A stretch of DNA of 6,236 nt from the NCBI GenBank assembly GCA_030149685.1, contig JASLGI010000045.1, positions 1 through 6,236 of the forward strand. The letters are read 5' to 3'. The position numbers and the translations under genes are program-made. Positions 1-6,236 of this stretch are shown here, piece by piece (positions within the stretch are counted from its first letter, which is position 1; each line of letters starts with the position of its first letter). The notes beneath the pieces are model-generated. The model had not been told where the DNA came from, did no database searches, and saw nothing but the letters and a program-made list of their open reading frames with translations. Origin of the DNA: Bacillaceae bacterium. GTDB taxonomy: Bacteria; Bacillota; Bacilli; Bacillales_A; Planococcaceae.

Positions 1-212
1 TTAATATTGTTCAATAATTGAGCAAAAAATGAAACGAGTCGATCTCTCATTTGAACGGAGATATGATCCTCTTCCTTTCCAATCGCATACGACTGGATGA
101 GTAAAGGATCAAAGTATAAGCTCGTATCATGCTTAATAAACCCATCCAAAAATTCAAAGTCTTTTTGACTGACATTTTTTATTTCTAAATATTCTGTAAT
201 TTTTTTAGGCAC
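1..212 (-). CDS. 5' part of an unrecognised protein gene, cut by the window edge
   Basis: I do not recognise this protein. Seventy codons are visible, starting with GTG at 212-210 and open to the left edge. AGAGGA lies 5 bases before the GTG, which decides the start. The protein begins VPKKITEYLEI and contains SLYFDPLLIQSYAIGKEEDH at about residues 31-50. It is hydrophilic, with no signal peptide or membrane segment in the visible part. It starts 58 bases after the cas7 stop, with the operon terminator in between and no clear promoter of its own in that gap, so it may depend on readthrough from the cas operon. It sits where cas4 normally follows cas7 in type I-C loci, but it resembles neither Cas4, Cas1 nor Cas2. 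A role in defence is possible from its position only. Confidence 0.75.
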   Translation of the reverse strand, partial: MPKKITEYLEIKNVSQKDFEFLDGFIKHDTSLYFDPLLIQSYAIGKEEDHISVQMRDRLVSFFAQLLNNI

Positions 213-228
213 GTTATTCCTCTTTTCT

Positions 229-264
229 AAAAAGCTCGAGCCTAGTTCCAAACTCGAGCTTTTT
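229..264 (-). terminator. Rho-independent terminator after cas7
   Basis: Two perfectly complementary 12-base arms, AAAAAGCTCGAG and CTCGAGCTTTTT, flank a 12-base loop. The hairpin begins 6 bases after the cas7 stop codon. The T-run at the end of the second arm makes it a terminator, and because the flanking runs are A on one side and T on the other it could work in both directions. It closes the cas operon before the next gene on the same strand. Confidence 0.85.
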
Positions 265-270
265 GAATAT

Positions 271-1173
271 TTATAGTTCCACAACTCGGTGCAGTGTCAC
301 ACCGTCGATATCTAGTTCATCGATCGTGATGTCGTAATCTTTCGCATCTCGGGCGACATCGACGTTTTCTTTACGTTCAATGTTGATCGCTTCAAATAGT
401 TTGTGGGATGGGGCGTTTCCGAATTCGCTGTCGTGCGCGAAGACGTATAAGCCGCGTGTTGCCATTTGGCCACGTGATGCCGAACGATCCAAGTCCCACA
501 TGTTAATTAATGATTCCCAAAAGACGGCCAGGTCATTTTCAGTGACGCCTGTCTGTTTCGCAAATGCCGGCGTGTAGTATCCTTGCGCGACATACAATCC
601 GTAAGGAACGTACGCTTTCCGTCCCATTTGTCCGTGGCGCGCTTCTACTTCGTCTTCGCCCGCTTCTTTTTGTGCATCGTTTGCGTTAGTCAATGCGACA
701 CGTGTGATCGTCATATCATACGGAGTGATCGGATCGATGGAACGTGCAAAGGTAAGTTGGAGCGGTCCTCGTACTTGTCCCGCATTGTACTTTTTCGTCG
801 ACATGACCGCACCGAACATTCGCGTGTCATAATAATGCTCACACATCCACTCACGAGCATCTTTCATAACGTTCGCTGACTGTTTTTCTTGATCTGCGAG
901 CCCTAATGCATCGTATGCTTTTTTCTGCTCACGCGATAAAATTCCACGTTGTTTTACATAAATGTCGTACCCTTCTTCTTCACCACGTGTAAGTTGCACG
1001 TAGTTTCTCACTTTGCGTTTTAAAGCAACGTCTGTCACTAATCCTTGCATCGTTTCCACATCGACACGTGGTAAGTTCCCCGCGTCTGGATCCCCATTCG
1101 GGTTTCCGTCTTTCACATCAAATACGAGTAAAAAATCGTACCGTTTGTTTGGGTCTGTTAACTGTTTAAACAT
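271..1173 (-). CDS. cas7: Cas7 (Csd2), type I-C Cascade backbone subunit
   Basis: Cas7 polymerises along the spacer part of the crRNA and forms the backbone of Cascade. The 300-residue protein has the hallmarks of the Csd2/Cas7c family: NPNGDPDAGNLPRVD (about 24-38), followed by GLVTDVALKRKVRNY (44-58), YDTRMFGAVMS (115-125), GQVRGPLQLTFARSIDPIT (132-150) and GRKAYVPYGLYVA (184-196). The length is normal for the family. I chose the ATG at 1173 because AAGGAGG lies 7 bases before it. An in-frame ATG 8 codons upstream (1197) has no such site, and MFKQLTDPNKRYDF is a typical family start. The gene overlaps the end of cas8c by 16 bp, is the last gene of the operon and is followed directly by a terminator. 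Confidence 0.96.
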   Translation of the reverse strand: MFKQLTDPNKRYDFLLVFDVKDGNPNGDPDAGNLPRVDVETMQGLVTDVALKRKVRNYVQLTRGEEEGYDIYVKQRGILSREQKKAYDALGLADQEKQSANVMKDAREWMCEHYYDTRMFGAVMSTKKYNAGQVRGPLQLTFARSIDPITPYDMTITRVALTNANDAQKEAGEDEVEARHGQMGRKAYVPYGLYVAQGYYTPAFAKQTGVTENDLAVFWESLINMWDLDRSASRGQMATRGLYVFAHDSEFGNAPSHKLFEAINIERKENVDVARDAKDYDITIDELDIDGVTLHRVVEL

Positions 1174-1535
1174 GATGAATCCTCCTTCTTTTTCCATAAC
1201 GCTTCTTTTTGATGGTAATAACCGAGTGCAAACTCTGCTTGCTCTGCCAACCGTAACGTCGATGGAAACGCATCGATTTGGCCTAGTAATTCTCTTAGCA
1301 TCTTATCTAAACTCACTTGACGGCCTTCATTATTTCCACCAATCTTCGCTAAATGGTATTGCGCATTTTTAATGAGCATGCCGAATACTGCAAGCGGCGT
1401 CGTTGAAGCTGCACCGAAAAATCGACTCGCTAATGTATCTTTTGAACCTATTGCTTCTTGGTGAATTTTCTCTAACACAGCAAATGTCCGACCTACAATG
1501 TAGGCAGGTTGTTTGTTTTCATAATCGATTGACAT
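1158..1535 (-). CDS. cas11c: Probable Cas11c small subunit from an internal start within cas8c
   Basis: Type I-C systems are known to make their small Cascade subunit, Cas11c, from an internal translation start inside cas8c, in the same frame. Here Met425 of Cas8c (ATG at 1535-1533, reading MSIDYENKQPAYIVGR) is preceded by a purine-rich stretch containing AAGGGAGAG. The GGGAG lies 10 bases upstream of the ATG and the final AG 8 bases upstream. Starting there gives a 125-residue, mainly helical product, close to the size of known Cas11c proteins, ending at the normal cas8c stop. Position, size and a plausible ribosome site support the call. The exact start codon is inferred from sequence only. 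Confidence 0.6.
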   Translation of the reverse strand: MSIDYENKQPAYIVGRTFAVLEKIHQEAIGSKDTLASRFFGAASTTPLAVFGMLIKNAQYHLAKIGGNNEGRQVSLDKMLRELLGQIDAFPSTLRLAEQAEFALGYYHQKEALWKKKEDSSCLNS

Positions 1536-2807
1536 GGTCCATTCTCTCCCTTCCCGTTGACTAACGAGCCAACTTTTTAATACTGCTGCATGATGTGCAT
1601 ACATGGCACCTTCTGCCTGGATCCGCTTCAAAAGAGCAATTAAAATACGTCCTGGCAACGGACGCCCTTGGAACACAAAATCGAACCAGTCACGAATATC
1701 GACTTTTTGCAATTGAGTGCTCGGCTTGTTGTAGATTGCTCCTGCTAACGTATAAATGCCATATACTCGATTGGTTCCAACTTGTTGGGCGTCTAAATAC
1801 GTATTGATCCGATCATATAACGTCCCCATCGATTCTTCTAAATAATTCCGAACGACGAGACGTCCTTTGTTAGCAGATAAGACGAGTAAACAAAAGTTGT
1901 TGAAGTGATACTCTCGACTCCGCTTTCCAAACACTTGATCTAACGCATCTTTCATCGCTTCTAGGTCGTTTCCAGTTTCAGACGATGGTGCATTAAAAAA
2001 TTGGTCCACTTCCAGTTCTTCTGACAATTGTTCATCATCTCGCCTAAACCAGTACACATACGTTAAATCACCGACTGAAAACATGTGTGGCCCACGCCCT
2101 TTACGTGGTTCCCGCTGTAACAAATATTCGAGCGCTTGACCGTATTTTTGTTCACAGACGTAACACGTCGGCGCAACAGTGGAATGTTTATTGCCGTGTG
2201 ATTCGTACGCATTTTTATTCGCTGAAATCATTTTCGTCCGCTCGCCGTCTACAACGAAGTTAATTCCGTGCCGTTGCATAATAGGTGCTTCTTCACCACA
2301 AAACATACACGCTGTAGCGTCAGATTGTTCGTCAGCGGCAGGTTTCACATACTCTTCCCAAAATGTTTTCGCTTCTTTCTTTTCATGAAGAAACACTTCG
2401 TCACGAATTCGAAAGACGATGAAATGGCTCGCTTTCAAAGAAGGTGGATAATCAATCGGTTGCTGTAAAACGTGCAGGAGCTGACGAACGTCCTCATCCT
2501 TCGTTGCTTCTATATATTGTTCGAGTAATGCAACATAAGCTTCGTGACGTTCTGTACTTTTTTCATGTTCCGCTTCTTTCTCGCTCCACCCGAAAACGTA
2601 ATCGGGTTTATCGACGAGCAATGTCGCTTTGACACCGCTCGATCGTGAGACGACAGGGACAATCATTTCTTTCTTTTCTGCATCGTTGAACGTCACTCCC
2701 GACTTCTCAATGTCGACGATCCAATCGATTTTTTTTAGAGCGTATCCGAGCGACGGGAAATGTTGAGGATGTTCTTCAGCAAACTCAATGAGACGTTTCA
2801 CGTACAT
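1158..2807 (-). CDS. cas8c: Cas8c (Csd1), large subunit of type I-C Cascade
   Basis: The large subunit recognises the PAM and opens the target DNA. The 549-residue protein is typical of Csd1 in length. Visible family marks are a CxxC pair of pairs, C167/C170 (CMFC) and C215/C218 (CYVC), likely a zinc site. Near the C terminus are SRFFGAASTTPLAVFGMLIK (about 461-480) and the conserved FALGYYHQ (526-533). The start ATG at 2807 follows AGGAGGTG by 7 bases and overlaps the 3' end of cas5c by 23 bp. The 3' end overlaps cas7 by 16 bp. The C-terminal quarter, from about residue 425, corresponds to the helical small-subunit region that type I-C systems also express separately (see the Cas11c entry). 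Confidence 0.96.
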   Translation of the reverse strand: MYVKRLIEFAEEHPQHFPSLGYALKKIDWIVDIEKSGVTFNDAEKKEMIVPVVSRSSGVKATLLVDKPDYVFGWSEKEAEHEKSTERHEAYVALLEQYIEATKDEDVRQLLHVLQQPIDYPPSLKASHFIVFRIRDEVFLHEKKEAKTFWEEYVKPAADEQSDATACMFCGEEAPIMQRHGINFVVDGERTKMISANKNAYESHGNKHSTVAPTCYVCEQKYGQALEYLLQREPRKGRGPHMFSVGDLTYVYWFRRDDEQLSEELEVDQFFNAPSSETGNDLEAMKDALDQVFGKRSREYHFNNFCLLVLSANKGRLVVRNYLEESMGTLYDRINTYLDAQQVGTNRVYGIYTLAGAIYNKPSTQLQKVDIRDWFDFVFQGRPLPGRILIALLKRIQAEGAMYAHHAAVLKSWLVSQREGREWTMSIDYENKQPAYIVGRTFAVLEKIHQEAIGSKDTLASRFFGAASTTPLAVFGMLIKNAQYHLAKIGGNNEGRQVSLDKMLRELLGQIDAFPSTLRLAEQAEFALGYYHQKEALWKKKEDSSCLNS

Positions 2808-3453
2808 GGCGGTACACCTCCTCGTATAAGTAATGTGGAATGTTCAGTGTGCCTTTTTCAACACGTGCCTCAAAAAAGTATGGTATGGTCATCCCACTTT
2901 TTTGCGGGTAACGGTAATCGAAAAACATCGGACCTAACTCTTCCGTCCAATCAACCGGTTTCTCTTTCCCCGTCACTGGCGCAAAGTGTGCCGAAAACTC
3001 CCTCGTCCCTAAATACGGTCGAGCGAAGCATTGTCCTTTTTGCACGCGACGATTGAACATCGATTCGTATTTTTCAATCGGGTGCTCGGTCGTCGGCAAT
3101 AAATGAATCTCAGCATCAATGATATACGCAACATCTGTCAAATAGAGACTATGGCGCAACTGCCTCATATCGTCTGCGTAACGATCTTCTGGGTTCTTCA
3201 TAAACGTTTTATTAATACTCGCTTTGCTTTCTACTTCGTTACGAATCATCGATTGAAACTTCGGTAGCTTCAATGCTGTAATCGAGCGTACTTCGTATTT
3301 GAATTCTGGCTTCCAAAAAACCGACTCTAACATGCCACGGGCAGCAGAAGGTGTCATCATCGGATAACTCACACGTTCTACTTTTCCTTCGGGACGGGTA
3401 AATAAAGCACCGTCGCCCCATACTTTCATACGTACTTTTGATACTCTTCTCAC
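2785..3453 (-). CDS. cas5c: Cas5c (Cas5d), crRNA-processing endoribonuclease and Cascade subunit
   Basis: In type I-C, which lacks Cas6, Cas5 cuts the repeat at the 3' base of its stem and stays bound to the 11-base 5' handle. The 222-residue protein matches the family throughout: WGDGALFTRPEGKVERVSYP (12-31), TPSAARGMLESVFWKPEF (34-51), RNEVESK (71-77), and FNRRVQKGQCFARPYLGTRE (133-152). Against the Bacillus halodurans catalytic residues Tyr46, Lys116 and His117, my by-eye alignment places Phe46, Lys128 and Tyr129, so the His appears replaced by Tyr. The start is GTG at 3453-3451, overlapping the cas3 stop as GTGA, with AGGAGGTG 7 bases upstream. The ATG two bases upstream is the last codon of cas3 and runs straight into a stop. 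Confidence 0.96.
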   Translation of the reverse strand: MRRVSKVRMKVWGDGALFTRPEGKVERVSYPMMTPSAARGMLESVFWKPEFKYEVRSITALKLPKFQSMIRNEVESKASINKTFMKNPEDRYADDMRQLRHSLYLTDVAYIIDAEIHLLPTTEHPIEKYESMFNRRVQKGQCFARPYLGTREFSAHFAPVTGKEKPVDWTEELGPMFFDYRYPQKSGMTIPYFFEARVEKGTLNIPHYLYEEVYRHVRETSH

Positions 3454-5612
3454 ATCGCTTCACCTCCTTTCAATAGTGGAACGCCTATCTGCTCATCATA
3501 CGGCCCGTCCCACACGTATATTCCATCGACTTCTCGTACTCCTGGCATCGTCGCTGGAAGTGGAACAGTCACGCCTTGCATCGCCCTCCACCATTCCTTC
3601 GTCTTCGGCTGATGGAGTAAAGTAGCCTCTACACCAGGTGCGTTCATACAAATGACTTCGACGGATGAATCATCAATCATGCGAAACGTTTCTGCGACGG
3701 TTTCAAACAAAAAAGGAATGTTCGGCAAACCGTGTCGATTGGCTTCATTGGAAACGATACGTCGATAATACGAAGCTCGTGCTTCTAACGACGTAAATGC
3801 TTCCATTCCGTATCGATCGATTAACGATTTTACTTGAGCGATGCCAGCCTCATAAGAAGCAGGCATGCGCGATGCATTTTCATACTCTACGACGTATACG
3901 TCTCCCATCTCCTGCTCGCCATATCGGTTGCACCGGCCTGCCGCTTGAATGATCGATGGCAAGGGTGCCATTTCTCGATAAACGACTTCGAACGAAATAT
4001 CTACTCCCGCCTCCAACACTTGCGTTGAAACGACAATTGGACGTTTTCCTCTTCGCACAGATGTTTGAATGTCGTGCAAGCGATCTTTGCGCGCGCGACC
4101 GATCAATGTCGTTGATAAATAATACAACTCGCGGTCCGGATGTTTCTCTTTCATCTTCAAAAATAGCCGTTGCGACTGTTTTCTCGTGTTAACAATACAT
4201 AGGGTCGCACGATGATCAACTCTTTCAGCAAGTGCCTGGTCATCGACAGAATGAATAGAATGGAACTGAACGCGTGATGTTTCTTCAACAGTTGGGAGGA
4301 GCGGTTTCGGAAGTCGCTTCAATTGCCATTGGTGAATCGTTTGACTCGTCGTAAGTGGCAAGTTCGTTGCGCTGACGAAAACAACCGTCACATCGTATTG
4401 GTCTTGCAAGACGTCCAGTTGACGTAAAATAGGCTCCAACAAATGCATCGGAAGTAAGTGGTATTCATCTAAAATGATGACACTCCCTGCAATGCGATGT
4501 AATTTGCGCAAAGCGCGTGGTCGATTAGAAAATAAACTTTCAAACAATTGCACCGTCGTCGTTACAACAAATGGACGATCCCACGTCTCACGTTCGATCG
4601 CTAACCGCTCCCGCTCATCTTCAGACATTCCCCGATGATCCACGAGACTATAATCTTCGATCACATGTTGTTCTCCGAACATCGTGCGGTACAACGCACT
4701 CATTTCTGCCGTTAAATTTTGCAGCGGTAACGCTGTAATAATTCGATTTTTCTGATATTTCTTCGCGTGCTCTAGAGCGTATGACAAACTAGCAAATGTC
4801 TTCCCATATCCTGTCGGTAAAACGAGTTCTACCGAGCGTTCATTCCCTCTCCCCTTCTCTTCGCAGATCATTTGCAAACGCGTCAACTCCTTCGAACGCT
4901 CTGTCGATTGTTCTAAAGAAGCGCGATGCGCTTGAAAACGAGTTTGAAACACTTCAAATGATGGACGAGAGGATACCTCCATTTCTTCGGTTTCATTTTG
5001 AAAACGCGAAGCATCGGACCAATCCGCATCCACGAGTGCACTAAGTGCCATTCGAGTAAATGTCTCTAATGATACTTGTTCGTGAAGGGGGACGTTCACT
5101 TTTTCCACTTTCCCTTTCATCCAATGCGCTAAGTAGTCCGTCTTCCACCGGTCAAGCAATGCTCGATCGTCCTCAGACAAACTGTCATCCAACGATGCAA
5201 CTACTTCTTCTACACGTGTACCTATCCTCGATGACAATGAGTCATCAACATCTTGAAGAGAACGGAAAAACGACACCGTTTGATCGTACAGGCCGCGATG
5301 GTGACCTGCAATGACGTTAGCGAGTAATAAAGATAGAAGATACTGCTTAGACTGGCCCAACCGCTTTTGCCAAACGAGCGATGCCCCTGGTAAAGCGTGT
5401 TGCACCGTTCCACGTTTGCCGTACGGGTTGCGAATGTACGCTTGAAAGTCATCCGTCGCCTTTCCAATATCGTGCAAGCGCGCCGCAATTTCCGTAAAGT
5501 CCGTTGAATCGAATGACTGCGCATAAATCTTTGCCTGATTTCCAACAAATTGTAAATGGTCATCTAACGTTTGACTACGTCCTGTCGCATGGTGCATACG
5601 AGCTATCAACAT
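3450..5612 (-). CDS. cas3: Cas3, HD nuclease fused to an SF2 helicase
   Basis: Cas3 is recruited by target-bound Cascade to nick and then degrade the displaced DNA strand while translocating. The 720-residue protein has an N-terminal HD domain with H19, H47-D48 and K51 (in RLHDIGKATDDF), H72, H104-H105 (AGHHRG) and D195/D197 (LVDADW). The helicase follows, with Walker A PTGYGKT (266-272), DEYH (382-385), SAT (414-416), LEAGVDIS (533-540) and QAAGRCNR (556-563). All the expected catalytic residues are present and there is no frameshift. The ATG at 5612 has AGGAGGAG 7 bases upstream. It is the first gene of the operon and its promoter region carries the target of the putative regulatory RNA. 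It ends in ATGTGA, overlapping cas5c by 4 bases. Confidence 0.97.
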   Translation of the reverse strand: MLIARMHHATGRSQTLDDHLQFVGNQAKIYAQSFDSTDFTEIAARLHDIGKATDDFQAYIRNPYGKRGTVQHALPGASLVWQKRLGQSKQYLLSLLLANVIAGHHRGLYDQTVSFFRSLQDVDDSLSSRIGTRVEEVVASLDDSLSEDDRALLDRWKTDYLAHWMKGKVEKVNVPLHEQVSLETFTRMALSALVDADWSDASRFQNETEEMEVSSRPSFEVFQTRFQAHRASLEQSTERSKELTRLQMICEEKGRGNERSVELVLPTGYGKTFASLSYALEHAKKYQKNRIITALPLQNLTAEMSALYRTMFGEQHVIEDYSLVDHRGMSEDERERLAIERETWDRPFVVTTTVQLFESLFSNRPRALRKLHRIAGSVIILDEYHLLPMHLLEPILRQLDVLQDQYDVTVVFVSATNLPLTTSQTIHQWQLKRLPKPLLPTVEETSRVQFHSIHSVDDQALAERVDHRATLCIVNTRKQSQRLFLKMKEKHPDRELYYLSTTLIGRARKDRLHDIQTSVRRGKRPIVVSTQVLEAGVDISFEVVYREMAPLPSIIQAAGRCNRYGEQEMGDVYVVEYENASRMPASYEAGIAQVKSLIDRYGMEAFTSLEARASYYRRIVSNEANRHGLPNIPFLFETVAETFRMIDDSSVEVICMNAPGVEATLLHQPKTKEWWRAMQGVTVPLPATMPGVREVDGIYVWDGPYDEQIGVPLLKGGEAM

Positions 5613-5637
5613 TTACTATCTCCTCCTCAGCAACCAC

Positions 5638-5664
5638 TTTATAAAACAACTACATTGAAGTCAA
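5638..5664 (-). promoter_or_regulatory. Probable promoter of the cas operon
   Basis: On the minus strand, TTGACT (5664-5659) and TATAAA (5643-5638) are separated by 15 bases. Both boxes are close to the housekeeping consensus, although the spacing is one to two bases short. Transcription would start near 5631, about 20 bases before the cas3 start codon. It lies just downstream of the hairpin at 5679-5712, which would insulate it from transcription of the small RNA upstream. Confidence 0.55.
5642..5659 (-). promoter_or_regulatory. Cascade target site in the cas promoter: TTC PAM plus 15-base seed match
   Basis: On the minus strand, TTC at 5659-5657 is followed by AATGTAGTTGTTTTA (5656-5642). 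The 15 bases are identical to those directly after the repeat-like handle at 5733-5744. TTC is the established type I-C PAM and stands in the position expected for it, directly 5' of the protospacer. Beyond base 15 the two sequences diverge (CACGC against TAAAG). The site spans the space between the -35 and -10 boxes and enters the -10 box, so Cascade bound here would block RNA polymerase. Confidence 0.7.
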
Positions 5665-5678
5665 TTATTTCGATTCCG

Positions 5679-5712
5679 AAAGTAGCAGACTCGAAATAGA
5701 GCCTGCTACTTT
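5679..5712 (-). terminator. Hairpin ending the crRNA-like small RNA
   Basis: Ten perfectly paired bases (AAAGTAGCAG with CTGCTACTTT) are followed inward by one mismatch, three further pairs and a 6-base loop. On the minus strand the stem is followed by only a short T-run (TTTCGG), so it is a modest terminator. It starts 20 bases after the repeat-like handle and can also serve as the 3' stem-loop that a downstream repeat would give a normal type I-C crRNA. Confidence 0.6.
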
Positions 5713-5732
5713 GCGTGTAAAACAACTACATT

Positions 5733-5771
5733 ATTTCAATCCACTCGTAAGATCTAGAAAACAGACTTTAC
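5733..5771 (-). repeat. Degenerate type I-C repeat (psi-repeat 1)
   Basis: The 3' part, GTGGATTGAAAT, is identical to the end of classical type I-C repeats such as that of Bacillus halodurans. The 5' part has diverged in sequence, but 5771-5747 can still fold: four pairs (GTAA with TTAC), one mismatch, then five pairs including two G-U, with a 5-base loop. The stem ends two bases before the handle region, near where Cas5 is known to cut. The fold is weak and I found it by eye. Confidence 0.6.
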
Positions 5772-5795
5772 AAGGCAACGTGCAAAGTACACATT

Positions 5796-5829
5796 AGCAT
5801 ATTTGTTTTTTATAATCAATTTTTGTCAA
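5796..5829 (-). promoter_or_regulatory. Candidate promoter of the crRNA-like RNA (weak)
   Basis: A perfect -35 box TTGACA stands at 5829-5824 on the minus strand in AT-rich sequence. The best-looking -10, TATGCT at 5801-5796, is 22 bases away, which is too far for an ordinary promoter. A poorer -10, AAATAT at 5804-5799, is 19 bases away. Transcription starting from here would begin about 20-25 bases before the psi-repeat hairpin. Confidence 0.3.
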
Positions 5830-5893
5830 GTCTCGATTCGTTTTTTATATCTTAAAAGAATATAACGGATTAGAGAACGTACTATTGAGTATG

Positions 5894-5920
5894 AAACAAC
5901 TACAAAACACCTTCAAGCCA
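5894..5920 (-). repeat. Third partial copy of the seed beside a handle-like sequence
   Basis: On the minus strand, TGGCTTGAAGG (5920-5910) matches the type I-C handle TGGATTGAAAT at 8 of 11 positions. It is followed by TGTAGTTGTTT (5904-5894), an exact 11-base repeat of the seed core at 5732-5718 and 5656-5642. The distance from TTGAA to TGTAG is three bases longer than in psi-repeat 1, and the bases before the seed are not TTC. It may be a decayed duplicate of the crRNA-like unit, or chance. Confidence 0.35.
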
Positions 5921-6057
5921 GTTTGTAAAGTGAGCTCCAGGTTTTATACTTTCTAATATATCATACTTTAATTTTTTTGGAAGAAATTTTACATTTCATT
6001 ATGTGAGAAGGGAATTTTTCTATTATTTTTTAAATTAGGCCACAAAATCCAAACAAC

Positions 6058-6092
6058 AAAAAAGAAGCCTAATTATTTTAAGCAGGCTTCTT
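6058..6092 (-). terminator. Rho-independent terminator after the second repeat-like element
   Basis: On the minus strand, AAGAAGCCT (6092-6084) pairs perfectly with AGGCTTCTT (6070-6062) around a 13-base loop, and the T-run continues to 6058. It is a strong terminator in the minus direction. It begins only 5 bases after the repeat-like element at 6098-6129, so it would end a very short RNA, or an array transcript, coming from that side. Confidence 0.8.
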
Positions 6093-6097
6093 CTTGC

Positions 6098-6129
6098 AGT
6101 TCAATCTACTCTCCCTATGAAGGGAGAAC
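6098..6129 (-). repeat. Solitary degenerate type I-C repeat (psi-repeat 2)
   Basis: This 32-base element, the usual type I-C repeat length, has a perfect 7-bp stem TCTCCCT/AGGGAGA with the loop TCAT (read on the minus strand). One G and then TAGATTGAACT follow, matching the type I-C handle TGGATTGAAAT at 9 of 11 positions. TTCAT also occurs in the loop of the Bacillus halodurans repeat. The orientation is the same as psi-repeat 1 and the cas genes. No other repeat is seen within the 107 bases to its right, so in this window it stands alone. Confidence 0.6.
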
Positions 6130-6157
6130 ATTATATCAATAGTAAGTTTGATAAAAA
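6130..6157 (-). promoter_or_regulatory. Extended -10 promoter directly before psi-repeat 2
   Basis: TGATATAAT at 6138-6130 on the minus strand is a perfect extended -10 element (TGnTATAAT). A poor -35 region, TTTTTA (6157-6152), lies 16 bases upstream of TATAAT. Transcription would start inside the first arm of psi-repeat 2, around 6123, and end at the terminator about 65 bases later. Confidence 0.45.
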
Positions 6158-6236
6158 GCTTTAAAATCAATACCTTTACTTTGAGTACATGTAGTTAACG
6201 TGTAGTATTCTTTCGAGCTTCTAATTCAAAAGTTGT
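6158..6236. other. Right edge, nothing assignable
   Basis: AT-rich sequence with no further repeat, no stem-loop and no convincing coding signal. A minus-strand frame open to the window edge gives 13 residues ending at a stop at 6197-6195, too little to tell whether a gene ends here. Confidence 0.4.

Follow-up and report, generated by a model that had tools for sequence, protein, structure and literature searches.

CreR, a cas-regulating RNA from mini-CRISPRs described by Liu et al. 2023 (cited in PMC13131331 and PMC12948488), is listed for types I-B, I-E and V-A in one source (PMC13131331) and is stated in another to occur 'widely' in type I and V-A (PMC12737573). The CreA RNA of CreTA is known from the type I-B systems of Haloarcula hispanica and H. 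hubeiense and from type I-F in Acinetobacter (PMC8501985, PMC10097628), and viruses encode RNA inhibitors of CRISPR-Cas, the Racr anti-CRISPRs, of which RacrIC1 is one (PMC10651486). Type I-C itself counts, according to one description, among the most prevalent subtypes in bacteria (PMC7684278).

Here we analyzed a stretch of 6,236 nt from contig JASLGI010000045.1 (the window) and found on its minus strand, at 5774-5679, what we believe with a probability of nearly nine in ten to be a one-repeat mini-CRISPR gene for an RNA of the CreR kind that represses its own cas operon. In many type I systems there are reportedly solitary repeats whose spacers match cas promoters in part (survey of Shmakov et al. 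2023, NAR). The features of CreR found for the window are a repeat-derived handle located outside an array beside the cas operon, a limited match flanked by a PAM in the predicted cas promoter, and, in its relatives, co-change of guide and target. Like CreR, the RNA would resemble a crRNA, match the promoter of its own cas operon over a limited length and come without a toxin; unlike the reported CreR cases, it would belong to a type I-C system and be processed by Cas5c instead of Cas6. With CreA it would share the degenerate repeat, the pairing at positions 1-5 and 7-11 that leaves the sixth base unpaired if need be, and the TTC PAM, the latter as in I-B (PMC8501985), but CreA represses a toxin RNA gene whereas the predicted target promoter in the window drives cas3 directly. 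RacrIC1 likewise has a solitary I-C repeat, yet unlike the Racr RNAs the element of the window sits beside its own cas operon, where it has a target flanked by a PAM. The top-ranked results of our literature search contained no I-C system described as regulating itself through such an RNA; as the two main surveys, those of Liu et al. and Shmakov et al., were outside this search, we do not claim that the case is unreported.

A solitary repeat end and its match in front of cas3

Judged by its protein models, the system in the window is of type I-C with a cas3-cas5c-cas8c-cas7 operon (Table 1), as all four genes score above curated cut-offs and cas5c, cas8c and cas7 do so with type I-C models. 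The window ends shortly after cas7, and neither cas4-cas1-cas2 nor an array was seen in it. Directly after cas7 follows a frame of 94 aa (3-284, minus strand) that is open at the window end and sits where other cas genes might have followed; it gave no NCBIfam match at 0.001 and no Pfam match at 0.1.

Table 1. Features of the cas operon and of the element upstream of it, in window coordinates.
Feature	Position	Strand	Role or basis
cas7, backbone subunit	271..1197	-	TIGR02589 above cut-off
cas8c, large subunit, putative PAM reader	1158..2807	-	TIGR01863 above cut-off
cas5c, crRNA-processing subunit in type I-C	2785..3453	-	TIGR01876 above cut-off
cas3, first operon gene	3450..5612	-	TIGR01587 and TIGR01596 above cut-off (general Cas3 models)
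Predicted cas3 promoter, TTGACT-17-TAAAGT	5636..5664	-	consensus match only
Protospacer, 15/15 match to guide	5642..5656	-	exact repeat; in predicted cas3 promoter
TTC PAM	5657..5659	-	sequence
Possible second-repeat remnant psiR2, ends ATCGAAAT	5667..5698	-	32 nt, in exact register after a 34-nt spacer
3' stem-loop, 14-bp stem, strong	5679..5712	-	starts at guide nt 21; MFE -21.1, z -8.3
Guide nt 1-15, AATGTAGTTGTTTTA	5718..5732	-	exact repeat; next bases CACGC
Presumed 5' handle, UGGAUUGAAAU	5733..5743	-	sequence; end of degenerate type I-C repeat psiR1 (~5764-5733)
Degenerate-repeat hairpin	5744..5774	-	predicted fold; 7-bp outer and 5-bp inner stem

The type I-C repeat end GTGGATTGAAAT stands alone at 5744-5733 on the minus strand and has the guide directly 3' of it. 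Reading this strand from 5774 downwards one passes the first hairpin, then TGGATTGAAAT and AATGTAGTTGTTTTACACGC and finally the 14-bp stem-loop at 5712-5679. The fold of 5780-5732 has an MFE of -11.0 kcal/mol (z -2.15), and folding places the 11 nt TGGATTGAAAT directly after the 3' base of the first hairpin, the type I-C handle being 11 nt long. In the structure paper on I-C Cascade the handle runs over U1-G12, C11 and G12 being numbered -1 and 0 (PMC7684278). From its predicted fold, the stem-loop at 5712-5679 is the probable 3' end or terminator of the guide RNA, although it is followed by no U-tract and the terminator scan calls no intrinsic terminator. A consensus scan found no promoter for the guide RNA itself just upstream of the handle. 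No second full repeat lies near the handle; the repeat-like ATCGAAAT at exactly guide+66, which overlaps the stem-loop, was noticed after the fact. Rfam gave two matches for 5500-6236, both below the gathering score, no near match was found in plasmid records, and an exact DNA pattern did not occur in viral contigs. Upstream of the guide gene, at 6059-6095, there is an inverted repeat of 17 nt (82%) with a minus-strand T-run, which is terminator-like by eye and was not called by the terminator scan.

The first 15 nt of the guide (5732-5718) are identical to 5656-5642, both on the minus strand, and the second copy directly follows TTC, which is an I-C PAM (PMC8406640). Thus the preliminary description, which had named the repeat end, the guide and the recurring 15-mer after TTC, was right in each of these elements and their places, and its assignment of the second copy to the cas3 promoter also holds, in so far as the copy lies between the predicted -35 and -10 boxes. 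These are TTGACT (5664-5659) and TAAAGT (5641-5636), separated by a 17-nt spacer (5658-5642) and together matching 9/12 consensus bases, in a region where the promoter scan returns four such sites vs 2.4 in shuffles. The -35 box ends with a base that also belongs to the PAM, and what the PAM leaves of the spacer is taken up by the 15-nt match. The ATG of cas3 begins at 5612, with the -10 box ending 23 nt before it, and the 29 nt from protospacer to ATG hold the -10 box and the Shine-Dalgarno sequence.

For a chance control the 624 nt upstream of cas3 were shuffled 3000 times with dinucleotides preserved, and the guide then matched at most 8 nt after a TTC (in one shuffle) compared to the real 15. 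Coincidence had already been considered unlikely in the preliminary description, and a chance repeat is now rejected on the basis of the shuffles and of the PAM, mismatch-phase and swapped-guide controls described below. A third near-copy of the motif, which the preliminary description does not mention, is found at 5904-5885 on the minus strand (20 nt at 85% identity). It contains the 11 nt TGTAGTTGTTT exactly, just after the handle-like TGGCTTGAAGG, and is without TTC or a good handle; its 11 common bases recur in 2/3000 shuffles. As a second target this copy was rejected, since by eye the PAM position reads TGT and guide positions 1-2 are mismatched, which does not fit the pairing rule. It is perhaps the relic of an older guide copy.

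Solitary handles, targets and mismatch rhythm in related loci

In order to compare the window with its relatives we compiled 176 loci including the window. A cas3 profile search of genome contigs contributed 80 loci, the best of a longer list, and the same search of viral contigs gave six, all of which were taken into the scan; TIGR01863 (Cas8c) was found in 43/261 genomes from the family of a Sporosarcina genome (G001) and in 53/398 genomes drawn from its class, while a gene-order search around G001 led to the same 261 genomes again. Ten loci were dropped, three without a cas3 match and seven with less than 150 nt upstream, so that 166 remained. Among the 176, at least two genomes are represented by two loci each (L002/L210 and L020/L208, neither positive). 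The blind counts take all kin at equal weight, and L223 and L224, which were found later as closer relatives, stand outside them. As handle we accepted GTGGATTGAAAN, a pattern chosen after the window was seen, with at most one mismatch, not in an array and between -1500 and +150 of cas3. The match score is that of the best TTC-preceded match to the 20 nt after the handle, mismatches at positions 6n being forgiven.

In 31 of the 166 type I-C loci we found 34 solitary GTGGATTGAAAN words, of which 13 have a TTC target scoring at least 11 and 15 one scoring at least 9, while the other 63 trinucleotides together gave two and four. As a control, array spacers gave 1/203 with TTC at 11 or above and none with other trinucleotides (one and seven at 9 or above), and the single case, in L142, seems to be a piece of a spacer that its own array contains in duplicate. 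Guides swapped against the upstream DNA of other loci never reached 9 (0/272), and every fifth position taken as a fake guide reached 11 in 25/9123 cases, array repeats and other repeated DNA included. No TTC target scoring at least 9 was present for 19 of the 34 solitary handles. Several of these look like random words in coding DNA, and L136 and L151 have a real-looking repeat and stem-loop with no TTC target in range. The six cas3 loci from viral contigs contained no solitary handle. The two cases that reach 11 with a trinucleotide other than TTC are L043 (TTT) and L126 (CTC), where relaxed PAM use for repression is possible judging from the sequences.

Mismatches between guide and target pile up at guide positions 6, 12 and 18. 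If every sixth position is forgiven, 12 handles score at least 12 vs 4-5 for the other five phases or none, and 13 reach 11 vs 8-9 otherwise. We aligned 17 pairs (the 13 above plus L001, L034, L126, L223 and L224 minus L191, with L043 also left out), none of which has a mismatch at positions 1-5 or 7-9; position 10 matches in 15, position 11 in 14 and positions 13-15 in 13; position 6 matches in nine, position 12 in six and position 18 in two. Because these pairs were picked by a score that forgives positions 6n, the phase control is the fairer evidence. Taken together, the controls with other PAMs, mismatch phases and swapped guides speak for recognition of the Cascade type as far as sequences can tell. 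The mismatch rule in the I-C loci is the one measured for CreA of H. hubeiense, which requires nt 1-5 and 7-11 but can dispense with 6 and 12 (PMC8501985), and CreA of Acinetobacter type I-F pairs except at 6, 11 and 18 (PMC10097628).

Structure with z < -2 follows the guide in 17/18 modules (the exception, L213, has -1.8), and the same test was positive for 4/16 solitary handles not listed as positive and 4/43 random stretches; two further non-positive handles were too near an end, or masked, for the fold test. The usual form is thus one repeat and a stem-loop, which resembles creA of H. hispanica, where a single repeat is combined with a terminator (PMC8501985). In 3/18 modules, namely those of the window, L001 and L124, a repeat end of 8 nt that has one mismatch occurs at exactly guide+66 (34 + 32), against a background of 10/601 for any 9-register stretch, a hint at descent from a repeat-spacer-repeat unit. 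One of the 16 non-positive handles, in L191, does have a TTC target (score 15). This module lies ~1390-1330 nt upstream of cas3 and has its target immediately upstream of its own repeat, so that the guide possibly represses its own promoter or a divergent gene.

The preliminary description had proposed comparing guide and promoter target in related loci, and covariation was indeed found, both in the layout of L001 and in four locus pairs. These pairs, picked because their guides align and scored at positions 1-11, are each reciprocal best pairs among 20 loci over the first 500 codons of Cas3, with Cas3 identities of 73, 77, 84 and 87%. Outside position 6, five changed positions are compensated, in L124/L126 (9), L141/L148 (7), L155/L156 (4 and 8) and L223/L224 (9), two are uncompensated (10 and 11, both L124/L126) and 33 are unchanged, whereas at position 6 none of three changes is compensated. 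Two further reciprocal best pairs are outside this count: window/L001 (43% Cas3) was left out because the guides are too different, and L135/L136 (69%) is unscored because L136 has no target. L001, from Sporosarcina highlanderae (cas3 42% identical in the best segment), shows the same layout in another sequence, with handle, guide AATCTTGTT and TTC followed by AATCTTGTT in a TTGACA-17-TATGTT promoter. Its target is again in the -35/-10 spacer, but about 120-150 nt before cas3.

The window clade was defined as the fetched loci with Cas8c at least 40% identical, i.e. L001, L214, L213, L223, L224 and L225. Handle, guide and TTC target before cas3 are present in 5/5 loci whose region upstream of cas3 is usable (L001, L213, L223, L224 and the window). 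Two further relatives, from metagenomes, have a cas3 that is 73% and 69% identical. L214, which ends about 300 nt before cas3, and L225, with cas8c and cas7 pieces, no cas3 detected and a handle without target, were counted neither for nor against. In L213 the target overlaps the end of the predicted -10, in L223/L224 it lies between TATAAT (by eye) and the Shine-Dalgarno sequence, and in all three it is within ~45 nt of the cas3 coding sequence.

Proposed autorepression and other explanations

For transcription, processing, binding, repression and its relief we infer the following course. In a transcript coming from upstream, Cas5c would cleave at the repeat hairpin's base, yielding an RNA that starts with UGGAUUGAAAUAAUGUAG and consists of the UGGAUUGAAAU handle, a guide of ~20 nt and the 3' stem-loop. 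Cas5c, Cas7 and Cas8c would assemble on it, and the complex would read the TTC at 5659-5657 and form a short R-loop over 5656-5642 between -35 and -10, so blocking RNA polymerase at the cas3-cas5c-cas8c-cas7 promoter. As the match ends after 15 nt, cutting of the chromosome by Cas3 would be avoided, and as Cascade would block the promoter of its own operon, the Cas proteins would limit their own synthesis. Less free Cascade, due to many array crRNAs or to anti-CRISPR proteins, would raise cas expression. This CreR-type autorepression was already the reading of the preliminary description, and co-change together with the PAM, mismatch-phase and swapped-guide controls speaks for it. If it is true, I-C systems would answer an anti-CRISPR attack by raising cas expression.

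Other explanations have to be weighed against it. The TAAAACAACTACA repeat might be the operator of an ordinary protein repressor, with the handle being coincidental or a dead relic, and the third near-copy at 5904-5885 would suit such a protein, as it lacks TTC and a good handle and its 11 bases are found in so few shuffles. A protein operator would however need no TTC, no handle and no guide-specific co-change, whereas in the relatives handle, TTC and register persist even though the sequence differs, and the mismatches follow the six-base rhythm of Cascade; we consider it highly unlikely. A decayed mini-CRISPR that once regulated cas and is no longer transcribed or loaded would explain the degenerate repeat body, the lack of a near promoter and the missing U-tract after the stem-loop. 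Decay should nevertheless erode the match, and guide and target still agree in 15/15 positions with the handle intact at the hairpin base; moreover, degenerate repeats are usual in working CreTA modules (PMC9458426), which makes decay improbable too, if a shade less so than the operator.

The least probable of the alternatives in our view is an addiction module of the CreTA or CrePA type, where the guide represses a toxin-like gene and not cas3. It draws on eight distant loci in which a small ORF lies between target and cas3. In the window the 29 nt from target to ATG, with the -10 box and the Shine-Dalgarno sequence, leave no room for a gene, and CreTA was rejected here for this reason; there is also no sense ORF of at least 35 aa between guide and cas3, and the targets of L213, L223 and L224 are similarly close to cas3. 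Under the autorepression reading, the window offers a compact and testable example with its target exactly between -35 and -10, and the comparative set provides many natural guide-target pairs that could reveal which base pairs I-C Cascade needs for repression.

Small ORFs between target and cas3

Between target and cas3, L135, L141, L148, L153, L155, L156, L158 and L201 contain a small ORF, which has a Shine-Dalgarno-like sequence and in many cases directly adjoins the target. From their sequences these loci look like candidate CreTA/CrePA-like modules of type I-C, and no toxicity is claimed. As the target serves the small ORF in several distant loci, the wider family is not uniformly autorepressive. 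We lean slightly towards the view that I-C Cascade has repeatedly been wired into gene control by one-repeat, stem-loop-ended guides upstream of cas3, giving two circuits, one in which cas represses itself directly, as in the window with its clade, and one that represses a small ORF, possibly toxic, before cas3; in this view guides and targets are exchanged over time, with the PAM, the 1-5/7-11 rule and the stem-loop remaining constant. The small ORFs themselves are of different kinds. Those of L141 and L148 encode transposase-type HTH proteins (PF01527 above cut-off), those of L155/L156 are HTH-like below cut-off, and that of L201 encodes a peptide of membrane-like composition and no confident family. 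L136, for which no target was found, has such an ORF as well, and the peptides of L135 and L136 are 30 and 26 aa long.
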